The position numbers and the translations under genes were made by a program. Below are positions 3,462 through 52,191 of a stretch of DNA of 64,000 bases, one piece after another. The number at the start of each line of letters is the position of its first letter. Within the stretch, counting starts at the first letter, position 1. A model generated the notes under the pieces. That model worked only from the letters and a program-made list of their open reading frames with translations. It was not told the origin of the DNA and made no database searches. Origin of the DNA: an uncultured Microbacteriaceae bacterium (GTDB lineage Bacteria > Actinomycetota > Actinomycetes > Actinomycetales > Microbacteriaceae); the NCBI GenBank assembly GCA_937124545.1, contig CAKZKU010000294.1, forward strand, positions 1 to 64,000, written 5' to 3'.

Positions 3462-5354
3462 TTACCGGGCGGTCAATCGCTCTGCCACGCCCAACTGTTC
3501 GTTGAGCGCTACGTCTTGTCGGTTTTTCATCGCCAGGATCGAGGCCACCAGGGCAATTCCCGAGAGCGCCACCAGGGAGACTGCTCCGGCAGCAATGCGG
3601 GCTCCGTCCCCGCCAGCCACTGCGGCGAGCAGCGCATCGGTAAACCACGCCAGCGGTGTCAGGCCCTCGAGGATCCGATAGGGGGCAGGGAAGACTTCGG
3701 TGGGCACGAGCGAACCGACGCTGGCGATCTGAATCACAGCTGCAGCGATAGAGACAGCGGGAACCCACGTGGGGCGCCACACCCAGAGAAGGAAGTGCAG
3801 GGAGAGGTAGGCAAAAATTCCTGCGCCCACAACCACCGAGGTGACTCCGACGGTGCCCCACTCGGCGCCACCCAAAGTATGCAGGAGAGCCAGTGCGATG
3901 AGGCCCTGAAGAACGCCGAGCCCCAGCAATGGTTTGAGTGAACGCCACGTGAGGGCGCGGGGACCACGGTTTCCCGTCAGCGACAACGCGGTGAGCGGGG
4001 GAGACGTGACCATGGTGACGAGCATCACCAGCCAGAGGCCCAAGGGAATAATCACACTGGCGAGGGTGGGCTGCACCCCAACAGCATCGCCTCGGTCCTG
4101 GGCGTCAAACACCACAGGAGACACCAGAGCTTCCAGCGCGCTTTCGCTGGGGACGGAAATATCGTTTTCTGAAAGCTCCTCGGCACCGTCCGAGAGGCCC
4201 TCAGCAAATTCTGCGGTTCCTTCCGCAATTTCGGTGGCGGCCGAATCCAACTCGCCAATCCCGTCTGCGAGCCCAGAAATTCCCTCGGCAAAATCAGCGG
4301 TTGCGTCACGAAATTCGTTAGAGGCATCGGCCAGTTTCTGGCCCGAAGTGTCGAGCGCATCTGCACCCTTGTCGACACCAATAATTCCGGTCGTGAGACC
4401 AGAGAGAGCTTCGCTGGTCTGTGTCGAAAGGGTGGCCCCACCCGCGGCCGTCAACGCAAGATTTTGCTCCACTGCTTGCAGAGTGGATTTACCCACGGAC
4501 GGATCCAGGCCTGAGATGTACGCATTGAGCGAGCTCAAAGTGGCCGACAGCGTGGAGACCCCGGCGGTGTAATCGCTGATGCCGCTGGAGAGGGCGCCCA
4601 GCCCACTGGTCCCCGCGGAAAGAGCATCCAGGCCGTCGCTGAGAGCTGTCACTCCATCGGCATAATCGCCGAGTCCGTCGTCGAACGTTGCGTACCCACT
4701 GGCGAGATCGCTCGCTCCATCATCGAGATCGGGCATTTCCGCAGCGAGCTCGGACATGCCTTCAGCGAATTCTTCCGTTCCTTCGGCAAGTTCCGTGGCG
4801 GCGTCAGCAGCCTCCTCAAACGCATCCCCGAGGTCCACGATGACGGTGAACAGCCCCTCTGTGGCTGCTTCAGCGAATTCAACACTCAAAGCCCGCGCGA
4901 TGGAGTCGCCCACTTGGTCGCCCAAAACGCCGGCGAGATAGCTCCGCGAAGGGTCAGTCCGCACGGTGAACTGCGCCTGTTCGGGGTTACTTCCCCCGAG
5001 CGTTGATACCGCGGCCGAGAAGTCAGCGGGAATCTCAAAAATTGCATAGACCTCGCCGGCCGCGAGGAGGGTGTTCGCCGCCTCCGTGCTGGTGATGACC
5101 CACTCCACCTCTGTGCCATCGCCTGAAACGAGCTCCGTAATCAATGGTTTGGAAGCGAGGATGATTTCCTCTTCGCCGTCATCATTAGTGGTTTCCACGA
5201 GCTCGTCATTGTTGACCAGTGCTACGGGGATCCGCTCCAGAGCGGTGTCTGCGCTCGAGGTTAGCCCCAACAAGCTACCCACAACGACGACGGGCATAGC
5301 CAGCGCCACAATCGTCCACCAGAGACGCGAGCGCTGCGGAGTGCGTTCTTTCAT
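3462..5354 (-). CDS. YhgE/Pip family membrane protein (ABC-2-like exporter component)
   Basis: N-terminal TM, extracytoplasmic region with many 'LxxGxxxL' heptad-like repeats (ELAEGTEEFAEGMSELAAEM...LASGYATFDDGLGDYADGVTALSDGLDALSAG), then a C-terminal bundle of TMs. Its start overlaps the MMPL stop by 4 nt. Confidence 0.9.
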   Translation of the reverse strand: MKERTPQRSRLWWTIVALAMPVVVVGSLLGLTSSADTALERIPVALVNNDELVETTNDDGEEEIILASKPLITELVSGDGTEVEWVITSTEAANTLLAAGEVYAIFEIPADFSAAVSTLGGSNPEQAQFTVRTDPSRSYLAGVLGDQVGDSIARALSVEFAEAATEGLFTVIVDLGDAFEEAADAATELAEGTEEFAEGMSELAAEMPDLDDGASDLASGYATFDDGLGDYADGVTALSDGLDALSAGTSGLGALSSGISDYTAGVSTLSATLSSLNAYISGLDPSVGKSTLQAVEQNLALTAAGGATLSTQTSEALSGLTTGIIGVDKGADALDTSGQKLADASNEFRDATADFAEGISGLADGIGELDSAATEIAEGTAEFAEGLSDGAEELSENDISVPSESALEALVSPVVFDAQDRGDAVGVQPTLASVIIPLGLWLVMLVTMVTSPPLTALSLTGNRGPRALTWRSLKPLLGLGVLQGLIALALLHTLGGAEWGTVGVTSVVVGAGIFAYLSLHFLLWVWRPTWVPAVSIAAAVIQIASVGSLVPTEVFPAPYRILEGLTPLAWFTDALLAAVAGGDGARIAAGAVSLVALSGIALVASILAMKNRQDVALNEQLGVAERLTAR

Positions 5355-8203
5355 CGAAGCGCCTCCCGACGTGTTTTCGTCAGATCAGACTGTGCGGTCT
5401 CATCAGCAAGGGTGCAGAGGATGACCACCTGGTTCGGCAGTGCAAAGTGGTTGATGGCCTGCCACCACAGCGCGGCGGTGTCTCCTGGCTCCACCGGTGA
5501 ACCCGCGCCAATGATGCAGACCGGCGAGCCCGACAGTACTGCTAGAGCTGCCTGGATAAGTACTTGCTGGGAAACAGTCAGCGATGAAACCGGTGTTGCT
5601 GCTGTTGTCTGGGACAAAGGCGCCTTCGCCATCTGGCTCATCAGGCTGTTTGTTTCCTTCAGGATTTTTGCGAGCACCTCGTCGCGATTAGTCCCCACCG
5701 GGAACCGGTCGGCGTGGTGAAGAGTCACCCACTCGCCGATGGTGAGCGAGCCAAGGGGGAGAGTCATATCGGCGATGGCGACGACCCTCCGAACGCTCGA
5801 AGCTTGGCTGGGCAGGGGCATTCCCGCTACCTGCAGCGAGCCGGTAACGGGAGCGCGGGCTCCAGTCAGCGTGGCGGCATAGAACCCGCTGTTGACGGCA
5901 GTTCCCTGGTGTTCGTATCGGGCTCCGGCTTCGAGTACCCAGCTGCTGGCTGCGGTGCGCTCTGCTCCCAGGTCCATCACCAGGTTTTCAGCTGACACAA
6001 TCGCTCCGTTCTGCGACTGTGCCCAATTAAGAGCCGTCAAGTGTTCGCGAAGTTTTTCCCCCTCGACATCGGCGTGAGGCAGAACGCGTTCCAAGAAACG
6101 CGGCAGGGCCCAAGCTTTTTCACCAAAGAGCGTCATGAGGGCAGGGACAAGGAGCATTCGGACCACAAAGGCATCGAGAGCAATGCCAACGGTGAGCCCG
6201 AGGGCAATCGGCTTAATGAGGGGGATGCCCTCGGGCACGAAGGAAAAGAAGACAAAAAACATGATGAGTGCGGCGGCCCCCACGACTCTGGCGCCTTGGG
6301 CATACCCCTCTTCAATGGACTCACGCCACTGTCCGGTGTGCACGTAGTGCTCGCGCATGCCGGAGACCAAGAACACCTGGTAGTCCATCGCTAGCCCAAA
6401 CAGCACGGCCATCAAAATGATGGGCATAAAACTCAGGATGGGCCCCGGGGTGTCAACCCCGAGAAGCGAGGCAAACCAGCCCCACTGGAAGACCGCGACG
6501 ACGATGCCAAACGCGGCCGTCACCGATAAAAGGAAGCCCACCGCGGCTTTTAGCGGGACCAAGATTGACCGGAACACTAAGAGCAGAAGGACAAACGAGA
6601 GCCCCACCACAACGAGCCCAAAGGGGATGAGAGCACCTTGGATGCGCTGGGAGACGTCGACACCGATAGCCGTGACACCCGTGACGGCAAGCGCGGTGCC
6701 TGTTTTGGCTTCAATTGCGGGGAACTCGCTCCTCATTCGATCAACCAGGGCTTTGGTTTCTCGAGAATCGGGGGCTGACTCGGGGATCACCTGGAATATG
6801 CCGGTCTCCACCGTGGGAGAGGGGAACCCTTCGGAGACGCTCTCAATTCCGGAGATTTTTTGAAACTCCTCACGAAGCGTTTCTAGGTCTTCAATGGGTT
6901 CGTCACTGGCGGCGAGATCCACGGCAACGATGAGGGGGCCATTGAAGCCCGGGCCGAAGCCTTCGGTGATCAGGTCATATGCTTTGCGCTGCGTCGAATC
7001 GATGGGCTCAGCACCACCGCTGGGCAGGTTAAGGTCAAGTTCGAGCGCTGGGACCGCGAGCGTCACGAGGCCGGCAATCGAGAGCCCTGCCACAATGAGC
7101 GGTCTCTTCATGATCATCCGGACGAATCTGCGTCCCCCCGACGGTGTGGGGTTTGTCGGGTCGGCGAGGCGCGCAGCTTTGGACCCTGCGGCAGGTCGGA
7201 GTCTCTCTCCCATAAGCCCCATCAGTGCGGGCAGCAGGGTGATGGCTGCGGCGATGGCAATCACCACAGCCAGGGCAGCAGCAGCGCCCATCACGCTGAG
7301 GAACGGAATTCCCACCACGAAAAGTCCGAGCAGCGCGATCACCACGGTGATGCCGGCAAAAACGACCGCGTTGCCTGCGGTTCCCACAGCGGTTGCCGCT
7401 GATTCGCGAACTTCGACCCCCCGCGCTAACTGCGTTCTGTGTCGCTGCAGGATGAAGAGCGAGTAGTCGATGCCCACTGCTAGGCCGAGCATCACCGCCA
7501 ACAGCGGCGCCGAGCTCGATACGGTCAGCACGCGTGCGGAGAAAAGGATGACGCCGATTGCGATGGCGACCCCGAACAGGGCGCTCGTGATGGGTTGCCA
7601 TGCCGGCCGAAGGGAGCGGAAGGTAACAATCAGCACCAGGCCGGCAAAAATGACACCAAATACTTCGGCGATGGTGAGGTGAACCTCTTGATCCTGGAAC
7701 AGCGAACCGCCGAATTCGACGGTAATCCCTAACTCTTGGCCGGCATCGCGATAGGCGATGAGCGCATCCAACATCTCGTCGGTGACTTGCCGCTCGCCGA
7801 CCTCAAACTGGATTTGAATGAGGGCGTATCGGCGGTCATCGCTGATCACATCGCCAGCAAATTCATCGAATGGGGACGTGACCTCGTCGATGAAGCGCTC
7901 GGCTTGAATAGCGTCGGCCAGGTCCTCAATGAACCGAGTGTTGCTGGCGGAGTCGACCCGCGAGTCGCCGGGTACCACCACGACGGCTTGGGCGCTTGCG
8001 CCACCAAACGAGGGGAAGACAGCTTGTAACCGGTCGAAAGCCTCTTGGGATTCGCTTCCGGGGATTCTGAATTCTTCGTCCGTTTGTCCGCTTAGCGCTA
8101 GTCCGCCGCCGCCGAGCACCAAGAGAGCGACGATCCACACTCCAAGGACCTGCCACCCGCGCGAGAAGCTCGCTTTGCCGAGGCGATAGAGCAGTGTGGC
8201 CAT
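5351..8203 (-). CDS. MMPL/RND family transporter with a C-terminal cytosolic extension
   Basis: Two repeats of RND topology with MMPL motifs (GLAVGIDYSLFILQRHR; LFGLAMDYQVFLVSGMREHY). About 220 extra aa after the last TM resemble a degenerate ABC-ATPase (see findings). Confidence 0.95.
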   Translation of the reverse strand: MATLLYRLGKASFSRGWQVLGVWIVALLVLGGGGLALSGQTDEEFRIPGSESQEAFDRLQAVFPSFGGASAQAVVVVPGDSRVDSASNTRFIEDLADAIQAERFIDEVTSPFDEFAGDVISDDRRYALIQIQFEVGERQVTDEMLDALIAYRDAGQELGITVEFGGSLFQDQEVHLTIAEVFGVIFAGLVLIVTFRSLRPAWQPITSALFGVAIAIGVILFSARVLTVSSSAPLLAVMLGLAVGIDYSLFILQRHRTQLARGVEVRESAATAVGTAGNAVVFAGITVVIALLGLFVVGIPFLSVMGAAAALAVVIAIAAAITLLPALMGLMGERLRPAAGSKAARLADPTNPTPSGGRRFVRMIMKRPLIVAGLSIAGLVTLAVPALELDLNLPSGGAEPIDSTQRKAYDLITEGFGPGFNGPLIVAVDLAASDEPIEDLETLREEFQKISGIESVSEGFPSPTVETGIFQVIPESAPDSRETKALVDRMRSEFPAIEAKTGTALAVTGVTAIGVDVSQRIQGALIPFGLVVVGLSFVLLLLVFRSILVPLKAAVGFLLSVTAAFGIVVAVFQWGWFASLLGVDTPGPILSFMPIILMAVLFGLAMDYQVFLVSGMREHYVHTGQWRESIEEGYAQGARVVGAAALIMFFVFFSFVPEGIPLIKPIALGLTVGIALDAFVVRMLLVPALMTLFGEKAWALPRFLERVLPHADVEGEKLREHLTALNWAQSQNGAIVSAENLVMDLGAERTAASSWVLEAGARYEHQGTAVNSGFYAATLTGARAPVTGSLQVAGMPLPSQASSVRRVVAIADMTLPLGSLTIGEWVTLHHADRFPVGTNRDEVLAKILKETNSLMSQMAKAPLSQTTAATPVSSLTVSQQVLIQAALAVLSGSPVCIIGAGSPVEPGDTAALWWQAINHFALPNQVVILCTLADETAQSDLTKTRREALR

Positions 8204-8775
8204 TAGCTCACCACCGCCGGGGCCGAGGCGTCTAGGTGGAGTGTGCTTTGCAAAAAATCCCTGAGGAGGGTACGGAGTTTGTCTGGATCCATGGGTTCGA
8301 TTCCGAGTATCCCCCCTGAAACCAGGGCATACGTCGCACCGGAGACCGCGATACCGAAGCGTGTGAGCTCTGTTTCATCTGCCGTGTGGTCCGCGAGTAC
8401 CGATGCGAGTCGGTGCATGAGAGCTTGCGCTCGTTGCAGAGATTGTGCCGAGTCGGCGAGGTAGGGGTGCGACACCACGATCTGAACCGACATCCGGTGG
8501 GCTAAGAGAAAATCGACGAACGCATCGACGAATGCCTGGCGGTCCGAGCTGCGGGAGAGCAGTGTTTGCTGCGCCCCGGCGACGATGGCTTCCAGCGCGT
8601 CGAGTGCGGGGGCCAGGGCGGCGTCGAGCAGAAGCTCTTTTGTGCTGAAGTGGTAAAGAACGTTGGCCTTTGAAGTCCCGCTGTGATCGGCAATGTCTTG
8701 GACACTGGTGGCAGGAATTCCCTGATGCGCGAACCTATCGCGCGCGATGTTGAGAATGTCTTCTTTGTGAGTCAC
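8203..8775 (-). CDS. TetR family transcriptional regulator
   Basis: N-terminal HTH: ILNIARDRFAHQGIPATSVQDIADHSGTSKANVLYHFSTKELLLDAAL. TAATG overlap with the downstream MMPL gene. Confidence 0.95.
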   Translation of the reverse strand: MTHKEDILNIARDRFAHQGIPATSVQDIADHSGTSKANVLYHFSTKELLLDAALAPALDALEAIVAGAQQTLLSRSSDRQAFVDAFVDFLLAHRMSVQIVVSHPYLADSAQSLQRAQALMHRLASVLADHTADETELTRFGIAVSGATYALVSGGILGIEPMDPDKLRTLLRDFLQSTLHLDASAPAVVS

Positions 8776-8823: not shown

Positions 8824-8989
8824 TTTCTGGGCATACTGCCAGACAACGTCCAGCTCACGCCAATGATCGGGACTGGTGTGCCCCGGTCGGGCCCCGCATC
8901 GGAATGATCCCCGACAGGGTTGAATGAACCCCACCGTTGTCGCGCTTCCAGCTAGAGTGAAAATCACCTTAAGTGCGTCGGGAGACATC

Positions 8990-9793
8990 ATGGCTAAAAC
9001 TCAAAGAACCATCGACGAGAAAATTACTCGCCTGAGGACCTACAACGTCGTTGCTGGTTCCCTCCACCTTCTCCAAGCGGTCGGGCTCGGCTATGTGCTG
9101 ACGCTTCTGGATAACCAGGTCACCTTCCCGGTGACCGCCGACTATCTAGGTGGCCCTCCTGGAGTCCCGGTTCCCGCGGAGCGAGTGGAACTCTTTGACA
9201 TCAACGTGGGAATTGGCGTGGTGGCGTTCCTGGCGATGTCTGCGTTCTTCCACTACCTGATTTCCTCTCCCATGTTCTTCACCCGGTATGGAAACGGTTT
9301 GAAGAAAAACCGCAACTATTTCCGGTGGACCGAGTACTCGCTGAGCTCGTCGGTCATGATCTGGCTGGTAGCTCAGATCACCGGAATCACCGATATCGCA
9401 GCGCTCTTTGGAATCTTCGCGGTGAATGCGTCCATGATCATGTTTGGTGCGCTACAGGAGAAGTATGAAAGCCCCGGCAGCGGAGGCTTCCTCCCGTTTG
9501 TCTTCGGTTCGATGACCGGGATTGTTCCCTGGATTGTCATCCTCATCTACTTCTTCGCACCGGGGTCCGCAGGGACGGTTGAAGCGCCAGCATTTGTGAC
9601 CGGCATCATCATCTCGCTGTTCCTGTTCTTCAACACGTTTGCGGTGAACCAGGCTCTTCAGTACCACCGCGTGGGTGGCTGGGCTGACTACATCAGGGGA
9701 GAGCGGATGTACATCACGCTGAGCTTGATTGCTAAGACAGCGCTGGCTTACCAAGTGTTTTCGGGAGCCATCATTCCAGCCCTGACGAGCTAG
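8990..9793 (+). CDS. Heliorhodopsin (267 aa)
   Basis: Seven-TM protein. Candidate Schiff-base Lys249 in 'YITLSLIAKTALAYQVF' (codon AAG at 9734-9736). Candidate counterion Glu115 in 'YFRWTEYSLSSSVMI' (GAG at 9332-9334). His26 and His88 lie at typical heliorhodopsin positions. Characteristic 'NTFAVNQALQYHRVGGWADYIRGERMYI' before TM7. Preferred ATG at 8990 rather than 8924. Confidence 0.93.
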   Translation: MAKTQRTIDEKITRLRTYNVVAGSLHLLQAVGLGYVLTLLDNQVTFPVTADYLGGPPGVPVPAERVELFDINVGIGVVAFLAMSAFFHYLISSPMFFTRYGNGLKKNRNYFRWTEYSLSSSVMIWLVAQITGITDIAALFGIFAVNASMIMFGALQEKYESPGSGGFLPFVFGSMTGIVPWIVILIYFFAPGSAGTVEAPAFVTGIIISLFLFFNTFAVNQALQYHRVGGWADYIRGERMYITLSLIAKTALAYQVFSGAIIPALTS

Positions 9794-9799
9794 AGAAAC

Positions 9800-10609
9800 A
9801 TGGAAACACCTGGCGAAAAGCTCGCCATATTTCGTGAGCGCCGAAACCTAGCCGCGGTCCAGCCGCAAGGACCTCTTGCGCTGGTCAACACCCAGTGGAT
9901 TGACATGGAGCAGACGGTCTGGGGTGTTCCGGGGCTCTGGGCGCCGCGTGAGGGCCTGTCCGGTCTGCAACTAACCGCCGCTGCCGAGGACGGCATTACC
10001 GTGGACGGCGAGCCCGTAGAAGGAACCGTGGATGTCCGGGCTAAGGGAACCGAGGATCCTTCTGACGTGGTCTTTAGTGACACCCAAGTAGGACATGTCA
10101 TCGCACAGGGCGATTCATACGCACTTCGGGTGTGGGATAGCAATTCCGAGGGCATTCAAGCCTTCGGGCACATCGACGCCTTTGACTACGCGCCGGAGTG
10201 GGTCATTACTGGCTCTTGGCAAGAAATACCCGGAGGCAAGAGTGTGGGCTTTGAGCATCTTAAAGACGAGGGCGTTTCCCGGGACGAAGTGATTCCCGGG
10301 GAAATCACCATCAGCCACGATGGTCAGGAGTACACGTTGGCCGCCTTCAAGGCGGGGAGAGCGTTGCAGCTCGTCTTCGCCGATGCCACAAACGATGTGA
10401 GCACCTACAGCGTGGGGCGTTTTCTCTTTGTTGCCCCCAACCCCGATGGCACGATCACGCTCGATTTCAACCTCGCCGTCCTTCCACCGTGTGCTTTTTC
10501 CTATGCGTTCAACTGCCCCTTACCTCCGGCGCAGAATCGGTTTCCCTTTCCCATTGAGGCCGGAGAAAAGAACGTCATGAAATCTGATGGTTCGCTGCTT
10601 CACGGCTGA
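9800..10609 (+). CDS. DUF1684 domain-containing protein
   Basis: C-terminal motif 'LDFNLAVLPPCAFSYAFNCPLPPAQNRFPFPIEAGEK' is characteristic of DUF1684. ATG lies 6 nt after the heliorhodopsin stop. Confidence 0.88.
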   Translation: METPGEKLAIFRERRNLAAVQPQGPLALVNTQWIDMEQTVWGVPGLWAPREGLSGLQLTAAAEDGITVDGEPVEGTVDVRAKGTEDPSDVVFSDTQVGHVIAQGDSYALRVWDSNSEGIQAFGHIDAFDYAPEWVITGSWQEIPGGKSVGFEHLKDEGVSRDEVIPGEITISHDGQEYTLAAFKAGRALQLVFADATNDVSTYSVGRFLFVAPNPDGTITLDFNLAVLPPCAFSYAFNCPLPPAQNRFPFPIEAGEKNVMKSDGSLLHG

Positions 10610-10716: not shown

Positions 10717-11226
10717 ATGAGTATGGCTTTAGCCACCGCGCGCGGCGTGCTTTTTGTGCACTCCGCTCCGTCTTCCCTGTGCCGACACATTGATCGCACG
10801 CTCGGCGCTACCGTGGGTCACCACGTTGTACTGGACTGGCAGGAACAACCCGTTCTGCAGGGCACGTTTCGCGCCGAGTTTTCCTGGGTTGGACCGCCAG
10901 GGGCCGGGCGTGTGTTGGCAGCGGCTTTGCGCGGCTGGGAGCACGTGCGTTTTGAGGTCACTGAGGAAGCTTCCCCCGGGTCCGACGGGGCGCGCTTCAT
11001 GCACACACCCGATTTGGGGGTGTTTTCTGCGGCCATGGATACGGCGGGAAACACCATGGTCACTGAGGATCGACTCAAAGCCGCCCTGCAGGAGGGGAGG
11101 GGTGACCCTCAGCGGATAGCAAAAGAGTTGAGACTCGCCTGGGGTGCCGCGTGGGACGACGAACTAGAACCCTTCCGATACGCCGGAGAGGACACCGGCG
11201 TGGTCTGGTTTCATCAGGTGGGTTAG
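10717..11226 (+). CDS. DUF3145 family protein
   Basis: ATARGVLFVHSAPSSLCRHIDRTLGATVG...VDLDW-type pattern and 'RLAWGAAWDDELEPFRYAGEDTGVVWFHQVG', typical of the actinobacterial DUF3145 family. Confidence 0.8.
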   Translation: MSMALATARGVLFVHSAPSSLCRHIDRTLGATVGHHVVLDWQEQPVLQGTFRAEFSWVGPPGAGRVLAAALRGWEHVRFEVTEEASPGSDGARFMHTPDLGVFSAAMDTAGNTMVTEDRLKAALQEGRGDPQRIAKELRLAWGAAWDDELEPFRYAGEDTGVVWFHQVG

Positions 11227-18861: not shown

Positions 18862-18935
18862 GGGCCTGTAGCTCAGTTGGTTAGAGCGCCACGTTTACAC
18901 CGTGGATGCCGGGGGTTCGAGTCCCTCCGGGCCCA
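18862..18935 (+). tRNA. tRNA-Val (anticodon TAC)
   Basis: GGGCCTG-TAGCTCAGTTGGTTAGAGC-GCCACGTTTACACCGTGG-...-GGGGGTTCGAGTCCCTCCGGGCCCA folds into a cloverleaf: acceptor GGGCCTG/CGGGCCC, anticodon loop TTTACAC. Confidence 0.95.
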
Positions 18936-23380: not shown

Positions 23381-23751
23381 GTGTTGGAGGGGTTGGCCAG
23401 GCAATCGCGTCACTGCGTCAGCGGTGCCGAGGAACGTCCGGGCTCCCCAGAGCAGGATGGTGGGTAACACCCACCCGGAGTAATCCGCGAGATAGTGCCA
23501 CAGAAAATAGACCGCCCGGTTTTCCGGGTAAGGGTGAAACGGTGGTGTAAGAGACCACCAGAGGTTTGGGTGACCAAATCTGCTTGGTAAACCTCATCCG
23601 GAGCAAGGTCAAACAGACACCCATCAGGTTGCTCGCCTGAGTGTCGGGTAGGCCGCTAGAGGGATCTGGTAACAGCTCCCCGAGAAAGATGATTGCCCTC
23701 GGGGTTCGCCCCGGGACAGAACCCGGCGTATCGGCTGACCTCCTCCAACAC
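23381..23751 (+). ncRNA. rnpB: RNase P RNA (bacterial type A)
   Basis: Universal core 'GAGGAACGTCCGGGCTCC' and 'AGATGATTGCCCTCGGGGTTCGCCCCGGGACAGAACCCGGCGTATCGGC'. P1 helix GTGTTGGAGG (23381-23390) pairs with CCTCCAACAC (23742-23751). Confidence 0.95.
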
Positions 23752-46918: not shown

Positions 46919-51968
<5,050 letters not shown>

Positions 51969-52072
51969 CCACATGAGTGGTGCTCGCGTCCACTTTGTGG
52001 TTCTCGATTAACGGTCGAGAACCGATGATTTACCAGCTGTGCTGGTAATCCTCAGACTGAAAAATCAATAGT

Positions 52073-52191
52073 GTTTCGGCGGCCATAGCGAAGGGGAAAC
52101 GCCCGGTTCCATTCCGAACCCGGAAGCTAAGACCTTCAGCGCCGATGGTACTGCGAGGGGGACCTCGTGGGAGAGTAGGACACCGCCGGAC
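52073..52191 (+). rRNA. 5S ribosomal RNA
   Basis: GTTTCGGCGGCCATAGCG...CGGTTCCATTCCGAACCCGGAAGCTAAG...GGGAGAGTAGGACACCGCCGGAC. Confidence 0.95.

Follow-up and report, generated by a model that had tools for sequence, protein, structure and literature searches.

A heliorhodopsin gene directly followed by a DUF1684 gene in a Pontimonas-related actinobacterium

The stretch of 64,000 nucleotides analysed here (hereafter, the window) belongs to a small aquatic relative of Pontimonas within the actinobacteria, and carries a gene, helR (Table 1), that very probably encodes a genuine, intact and ordinary heliorhodopsin with a photoreceptor role. This confidence covers the family and the photoreceptor role, coupling to the neighbouring DUF1684 gene lying outside it. 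The genus-wide pairing of these two genes appears to be an unreported addition, as we did not find a link between DUF1684 and heliorhodopsins in the literature, supplements of neighbour surveys aside, and it provides a concrete candidate partner for a receptor family of debated role.

Table 1. Features of the heliorhodopsin locus in the window
Feature	Coordinates	Strand	Basis
TetR-type regulator, divergent from helR	8203..8775	-	Profile matches; neighbourhood comparison
Presumed leader of helR	8931..8989	+	Comparison of upstream DNA (GCTAGAGTGAAAATCACC stretch common to nearest relatives); GGGAGA before ATG
Heliorhodopsin (helR), ORF of 267 aa, stop codon counted in coordinates	8990..9793	+	Pfam, NCBIfam and PDB matches; invariant residues; AF2 model; Foldseek
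DUF1684 protein (PF07920), 269 aa, C231-x7-C239	9800..10609	+	PF07920, E=4e-36; next to heliorhodopsin in nine genomes of the genus
DUF3145 protein (PF11343)	10717..11226	+	E=8e-61; older DUF1684 neighbour in Microbacteriaceae

Assignment to the heliorhodopsin family

The initial annotation, made from the letters alone, had read the gene as a heliorhodopsin, and had proposed a profile search and a structural superposition to check this reading. Both heliorhodopsin profiles are matched full-length and above their curated cut-offs, PF18761 with 304 bits (E=8e-91, cut-off 26.7) and the equivalog profile NF038020 with 327 bits (E=9e-98, cut-off 100), and the alignment with the structure of heliorhodopsin 48C12 (6su3, E=5e-85) spans nearly the whole protein; with such E-values, the match is not due to chance and the family assignment stands. 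All the motifs that had been quoted are present in the ORF, with Lys249 within SLIAKTALAYQVF, Glu115 within RWTEYSLSSSVM, and NQALQYHRVGGWADYIRGERMYI preceding TM7. Read off the alignment, Lys249 and Glu115 correspond to K241 and E107 of 48C12, in agreement with the roles of retinal lysine and counterion proposed for them, and His26 and His88 correspond to H23 and H80. These four residues are identical in 141/141 aligned heliorhodopsin sequences, a distant paralogue among them, some entries of this alignment being the same gene fetched twice. Where estimable, dN/dS of helR against Pontimonas relatives ranges from 0.004 to 0.09, indicating strong purifying selection.

The AlphaFold model (39 sequences, pLDDT 89, pTM 0.85) has the seven membrane helices that had been predicted, as well as two beta strands in ECL1 (residues 45-52 and 64-72). 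Compared with Foldseek, it superposes on 48C12 at 1.9-2.5 Å (TM 0.85-0.89) and is close to the archaeal heliorhodopsin structures of Thermoplasmatales (TM 0.82-0.84), while the type-1 rhodopsins listed reach only 0.51-0.69. Homology to 48C12 suggests an inverted topology with the N-terminus in the cytoplasm, and characterised relatives point to retinal binding and a slow photocycle without pumping. The protein would thus be an inverted seven-helix opsin with all-trans retinal bound to Lys249 and Glu115 serving as counterion, a slow photoreceptor that does not pump and may signal its light state to other proteins through its cytoplasmic loops.

If translation began at the in-frame ATG at 8924, the protein would have 289 aa instead of 267. 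Judging from the sequences compared, 8990 is nevertheless the better start, since relatives and a near-identical copy on another contig (C43, see below) align from MAKTQRTIDEKI, and since a ribosome-binding-like GGGAGA stretch lies just 5' of it. A promoter scan found no sigma-70-like promoter or sigma-70 consensus upstream of helR.

Heliorhodopsins are frequent and already well described among Microbacteriaceae, and the window gene is an ordinary member of their family: the heliorhodopsin profile is matched in 60 of 300 genomes, representing 21 of 85 genera, and published examples come from Rhodoluna and Aquiluna (PMC12422013) and from Aurantimicrobium (PMC8591293). In the phylogenetic tree, the window gene falls in a Pontimonas clade (99% SH-aLRT) that stands beside Cryobacterium/Arthrobacter and freshwater clades.

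Host genome and other rhodopsins

The window contig, 69.8 kb long, is part of a bin of 2.33 Mb (303 contigs, 99% complete, 9% contaminated), and the nearest named relative, Pontimonas sp. AM-384-M10, has an identical heliorhodopsin protein. The description of the genome as compact is fair for the genus, relatives having about 0.9-1.8 Mb, several of these genomes being incomplete. The window also holds a complete rRNA operon (16S, 23S and 5S; 46919-52191), an RNase P RNA (23389-23746) and a tRNA (18862-18935).

Another contig of the bin, C43 (L002:1501-2826), bears a pair of heliorhodopsin and DUF1684 genes near-identical to that at 8990-10609. The two heliorhodopsins are identical in all but 1 of 267 residues, yet dS between their genes is 0.44 (66 differences over 197 synonymous sites) and their upstream flanks are different; a true second copy was therefore rejected in favour of a second species, the bin mixing two species of Pontimonas. 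A further heliorhodopsin, 37% identical to that of the window, is encoded on contig C226 (L160:1267-2040); its 86% identical counterpart in a cleaner congener (G104) makes it probable that this gene is a genuine character of the genus. It scores higher against a Thermoplasmatales structure than against 48C12.

Searching the bin for a type-1 rhodopsin, as had also been suggested, revealed one on contig C225 (L004:1456-2193), whose third helix, RYIDWLLTTPLLLVE, has the D-T-E pattern of proton pumps. The presence of this separate candidate pump, together with the fact that the closest solved relative of the window protein is the bacterial 48C12, makes it very improbable that the latter protein is itself a light-driven proton transporter like V2HeR3 of viruses. 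A viral heliorhodopsin does transport protons (PMC9448325), but those of bacteria are reported as non-pumping (PMC11109279). The type-1 gene lies between polynucleotide-phosphorylase-like and M16-type peptidase genes (neighbours read by eye).

Where would the retinal come from?

The observation that carotenoid and retinal genes are lacking from the window holds; in the bin, phytoene synthase and lycopene cyclase are found only on contig C11. There, the phytoene synthase gene is followed by a desaturase-like gene, a single lycopene-cyclase domain and a UbiA prenyltransferase, a set that fits C50 carotenoids. Profile searches of this fragmented bin (303 contigs), with positive controls in other genomes, gave no match for Blh, nor for a carotenoid-cleaving enzyme of the RPE65 type. 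The absence of Blh is informative, because the same profile detects it in 3 of 19 congeners (G030, G303 and G311), each of which has three lycopene-cyclase domain matches vs one in the window's bin. G030 has Blh without heliorhodopsin, G303 has both, and Blh is undetectable in 8 of the 9 genomes with the heliorhodopsin type of the window, many of them incomplete. In the P. salivibrio chromosome, the retinal genes have been reported as a horizontally acquired operon (PMC6106888).

Of the two sources first envisaged, elsewhere in the genome or outside the cell, the second is thus the likelier: as the bin encodes no known cleavage enzyme, retinal is probably taken from outside, a supply route already proposed for most Luna-1 genomes (PMC12422013). 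The same absence of Blh and RPE65, and the single lycopene-cyclase domain of the C11 cluster where Blh genomes have three, would also suit an opsin that stays mostly retinal-free in vivo, the cell making no retinal and the pigment forming only if neighbours supply some. We consider this unlikely, because purifying selection is strong and includes the retinal lysine, and because rhodopsins of bacteria without blh are reported to be functional with exogenous retinal, in work that a passage of PMC12422013 cites. The setting is that of a retinal-dependent receptor maintained under strong selection in an organism seemingly unable to make retinal.

In G030 (L149:5801-11703), the lycopene cyclases and blh precede the DUF1684 gene by about 3.4 kb, near the place that the heliorhodopsin gene occupies in the window. 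A common light locus was considered and rejected, as the crtY-blh set stands apart from DUF1684, with several unrelated genes in the interval.

The DUF1684 neighbour and the history of the locus

The DUF1684 gene, which the initial annotation does not mention, starts 6 nt after the helR stop codon on the same strand, and the DUF3145 gene follows 107 bases downstream. DUF1684 directly follows a heliorhodopsin of the window type (HeR-1) in all nine Pontimonas genomes that have HeR-1, at a spacing of 6, 4, 2 or -1 nt, which falls within the limit of about 10 bp used for same-strand neighbours in PMC8612252. Co-transcription of the two genes is considered likely. Upstream flanks of HeR-1 are variable (TetR, DoxX-like or desaturase genes), and the adjoining TetR gene is not conserved in other Pontimonas lineages in the neighbourhood comparison. 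TetR, MMPL and YhgE genes were rejected as partners, the first not being found beside heliorhodopsins of other lineages, and the other two occurring beside DUF3145 without heliorhodopsin. The TetR-MMPL-YhgE cluster itself (window 3462-8775) varies in place and orientation around DUF3145/fabF among Pontimonas, and in Aquiluna, too, heliorhodopsin is preceded by an MMPL gene, at a distance of 34 bp (L099).

The DUF1684 gene is present in 103 of 120 Microbacteriaceae genomes, and the DUF1684-DUF3145 pair exists without heliorhodopsin in four congeners (G030, G295, G301 and G306) and several other genera, the slot before DUF1684 being occupied in some by PIN-domain/antitoxin-like genes or an isochorismatase. 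DUF1684 is absent from beside heliorhodopsin in the other Microbacteriaceae and Micrococcaceae loci compared, where other heliorhodopsin clades adjoin genes for an alpha-amylase (11 bp), a fumarase (14 bp), a DUF1295 protein (6 bp), an MMPL protein (34 bp) or an M23 peptidase (85 bp). The pairing is confined to one clade of the heliorhodopsin tree and thus counts as one event. Since the DUF1684-DUF3145 pair exists without heliorhodopsin and other clades have other neighbours, the history of the locus is most simply explained by a single entry of heliorhodopsin upstream of this older pair.

Does this adjacency reflect a functional relationship? There is about an even chance that it does not, the heliorhodopsin having landed, or been kept, as a passenger at a variable site upstream of DUF1684-DUF3145, where tight spacing would reflect the use of one promoter only and the receptor would work alone or with unlinked partners. 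This explanation contests the coupling and not the family assignment. It draws on the heliorhodopsin-free loci, on the other occupants of the same slot and on the different neighbours of other heliorhodopsin clades just described, but has to account for a linkage maintained in nine genomes, with identities as low as 83% for heliorhodopsin and 63% for DUF1684, despite the reshuffling of the flanks on the opposite side.

A possible link between light and thiols

The DUF1684 protein of the window has no evident signal peptide and bears a Cx7C motif (C231-AFSYAFN-C239), whose two cysteines are invariant in 24 aligned homologues, whether paired with heliorhodopsin or not. Haloferax HVO_1043, a DUF1684 protein with a conserved Cx7C, has been placed in a thiol-relay group (PMC9426492); among the papers searched this is the only one to name DUF1684, and it does not do so in connection with heliorhodopsin. 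Heliorhodopsins are known to bind and light-modulate their operon partners GS (PMC9529153) and OmrDE (PMC11109279), and a survey of their neighbours suggests roles in oxidative stress (PMC8612252). A light-to-thiol link is possible, since the window protein has the Cx7C of HVO_1043 and heliorhodopsins modulate operon partners, but the motif belongs to DUF1684 at large. A modulation of the DUF1684 protein by heliorhodopsin, with a possible part in protection against thiol/redox stress, is rather unlikely, and the complete scheme, in which the Pontimonas heliorhodopsin with imported retinal would be the light input and the Cx7C of DUF1684 the thiol-relay output of a light-controlled redox protection, is more doubtful still.

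The residues specific to the paired clade were screened for a concentration in the cytoplasmic loops that might betray a new partner, but showed no enrichment there, only 1 of 8 being on the cytoplasmic face. That one, His226 in ICL3 in place of Arg/Lys, takes away a charge like those reported as important for binding partners (PMC9529153), and both findings count against the coupling. The AlphaFold model of the DUF1684 protein, obtained with seven close homologues as input, was set aside (pLDDT 52).

Comparison with known heliorhodopsin systems

As in the heliorhodopsin operon groups of PMC11109279, the window gene is co-directional with a close neighbour, but the ten groups described there (GS, NAD+ synthetase, photolyase, MerR, TerC, ABC transporter, SDR, alpha/beta hydrolase, DUF2177 and DUF2238) are without DUF1684. 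Within the family, heliorhodopsins of Cryobacterium, Microcella, Aurantimicrobium, Rhodoluna, Aquiluna and their relatives have the same signature residues at 54-78% identity, whereas a homologue of the window's DUF1684 gene adjoins none of the 70-odd loci outside the genus. With 48C12 (PDB 6su3, 6su4, 6uh3 and 9ljj), the window protein has in common full-length homology (about 55-56% identity), the fold, the retinal lysine, the counterion glutamate and the histidine pair. From the start of TM1 to TM2 it is longer by a net five residues, the numbering offset growing from 3 to 8, and in TM7 it has a tyrosine where 48C12 has a tryptophan (Tyr254 vs position 246). This TM7 residue (window 9749-9751) is Tyr in the whole Pontimonas clade and Trp in 100 of the 102 other heliorhodopsins.
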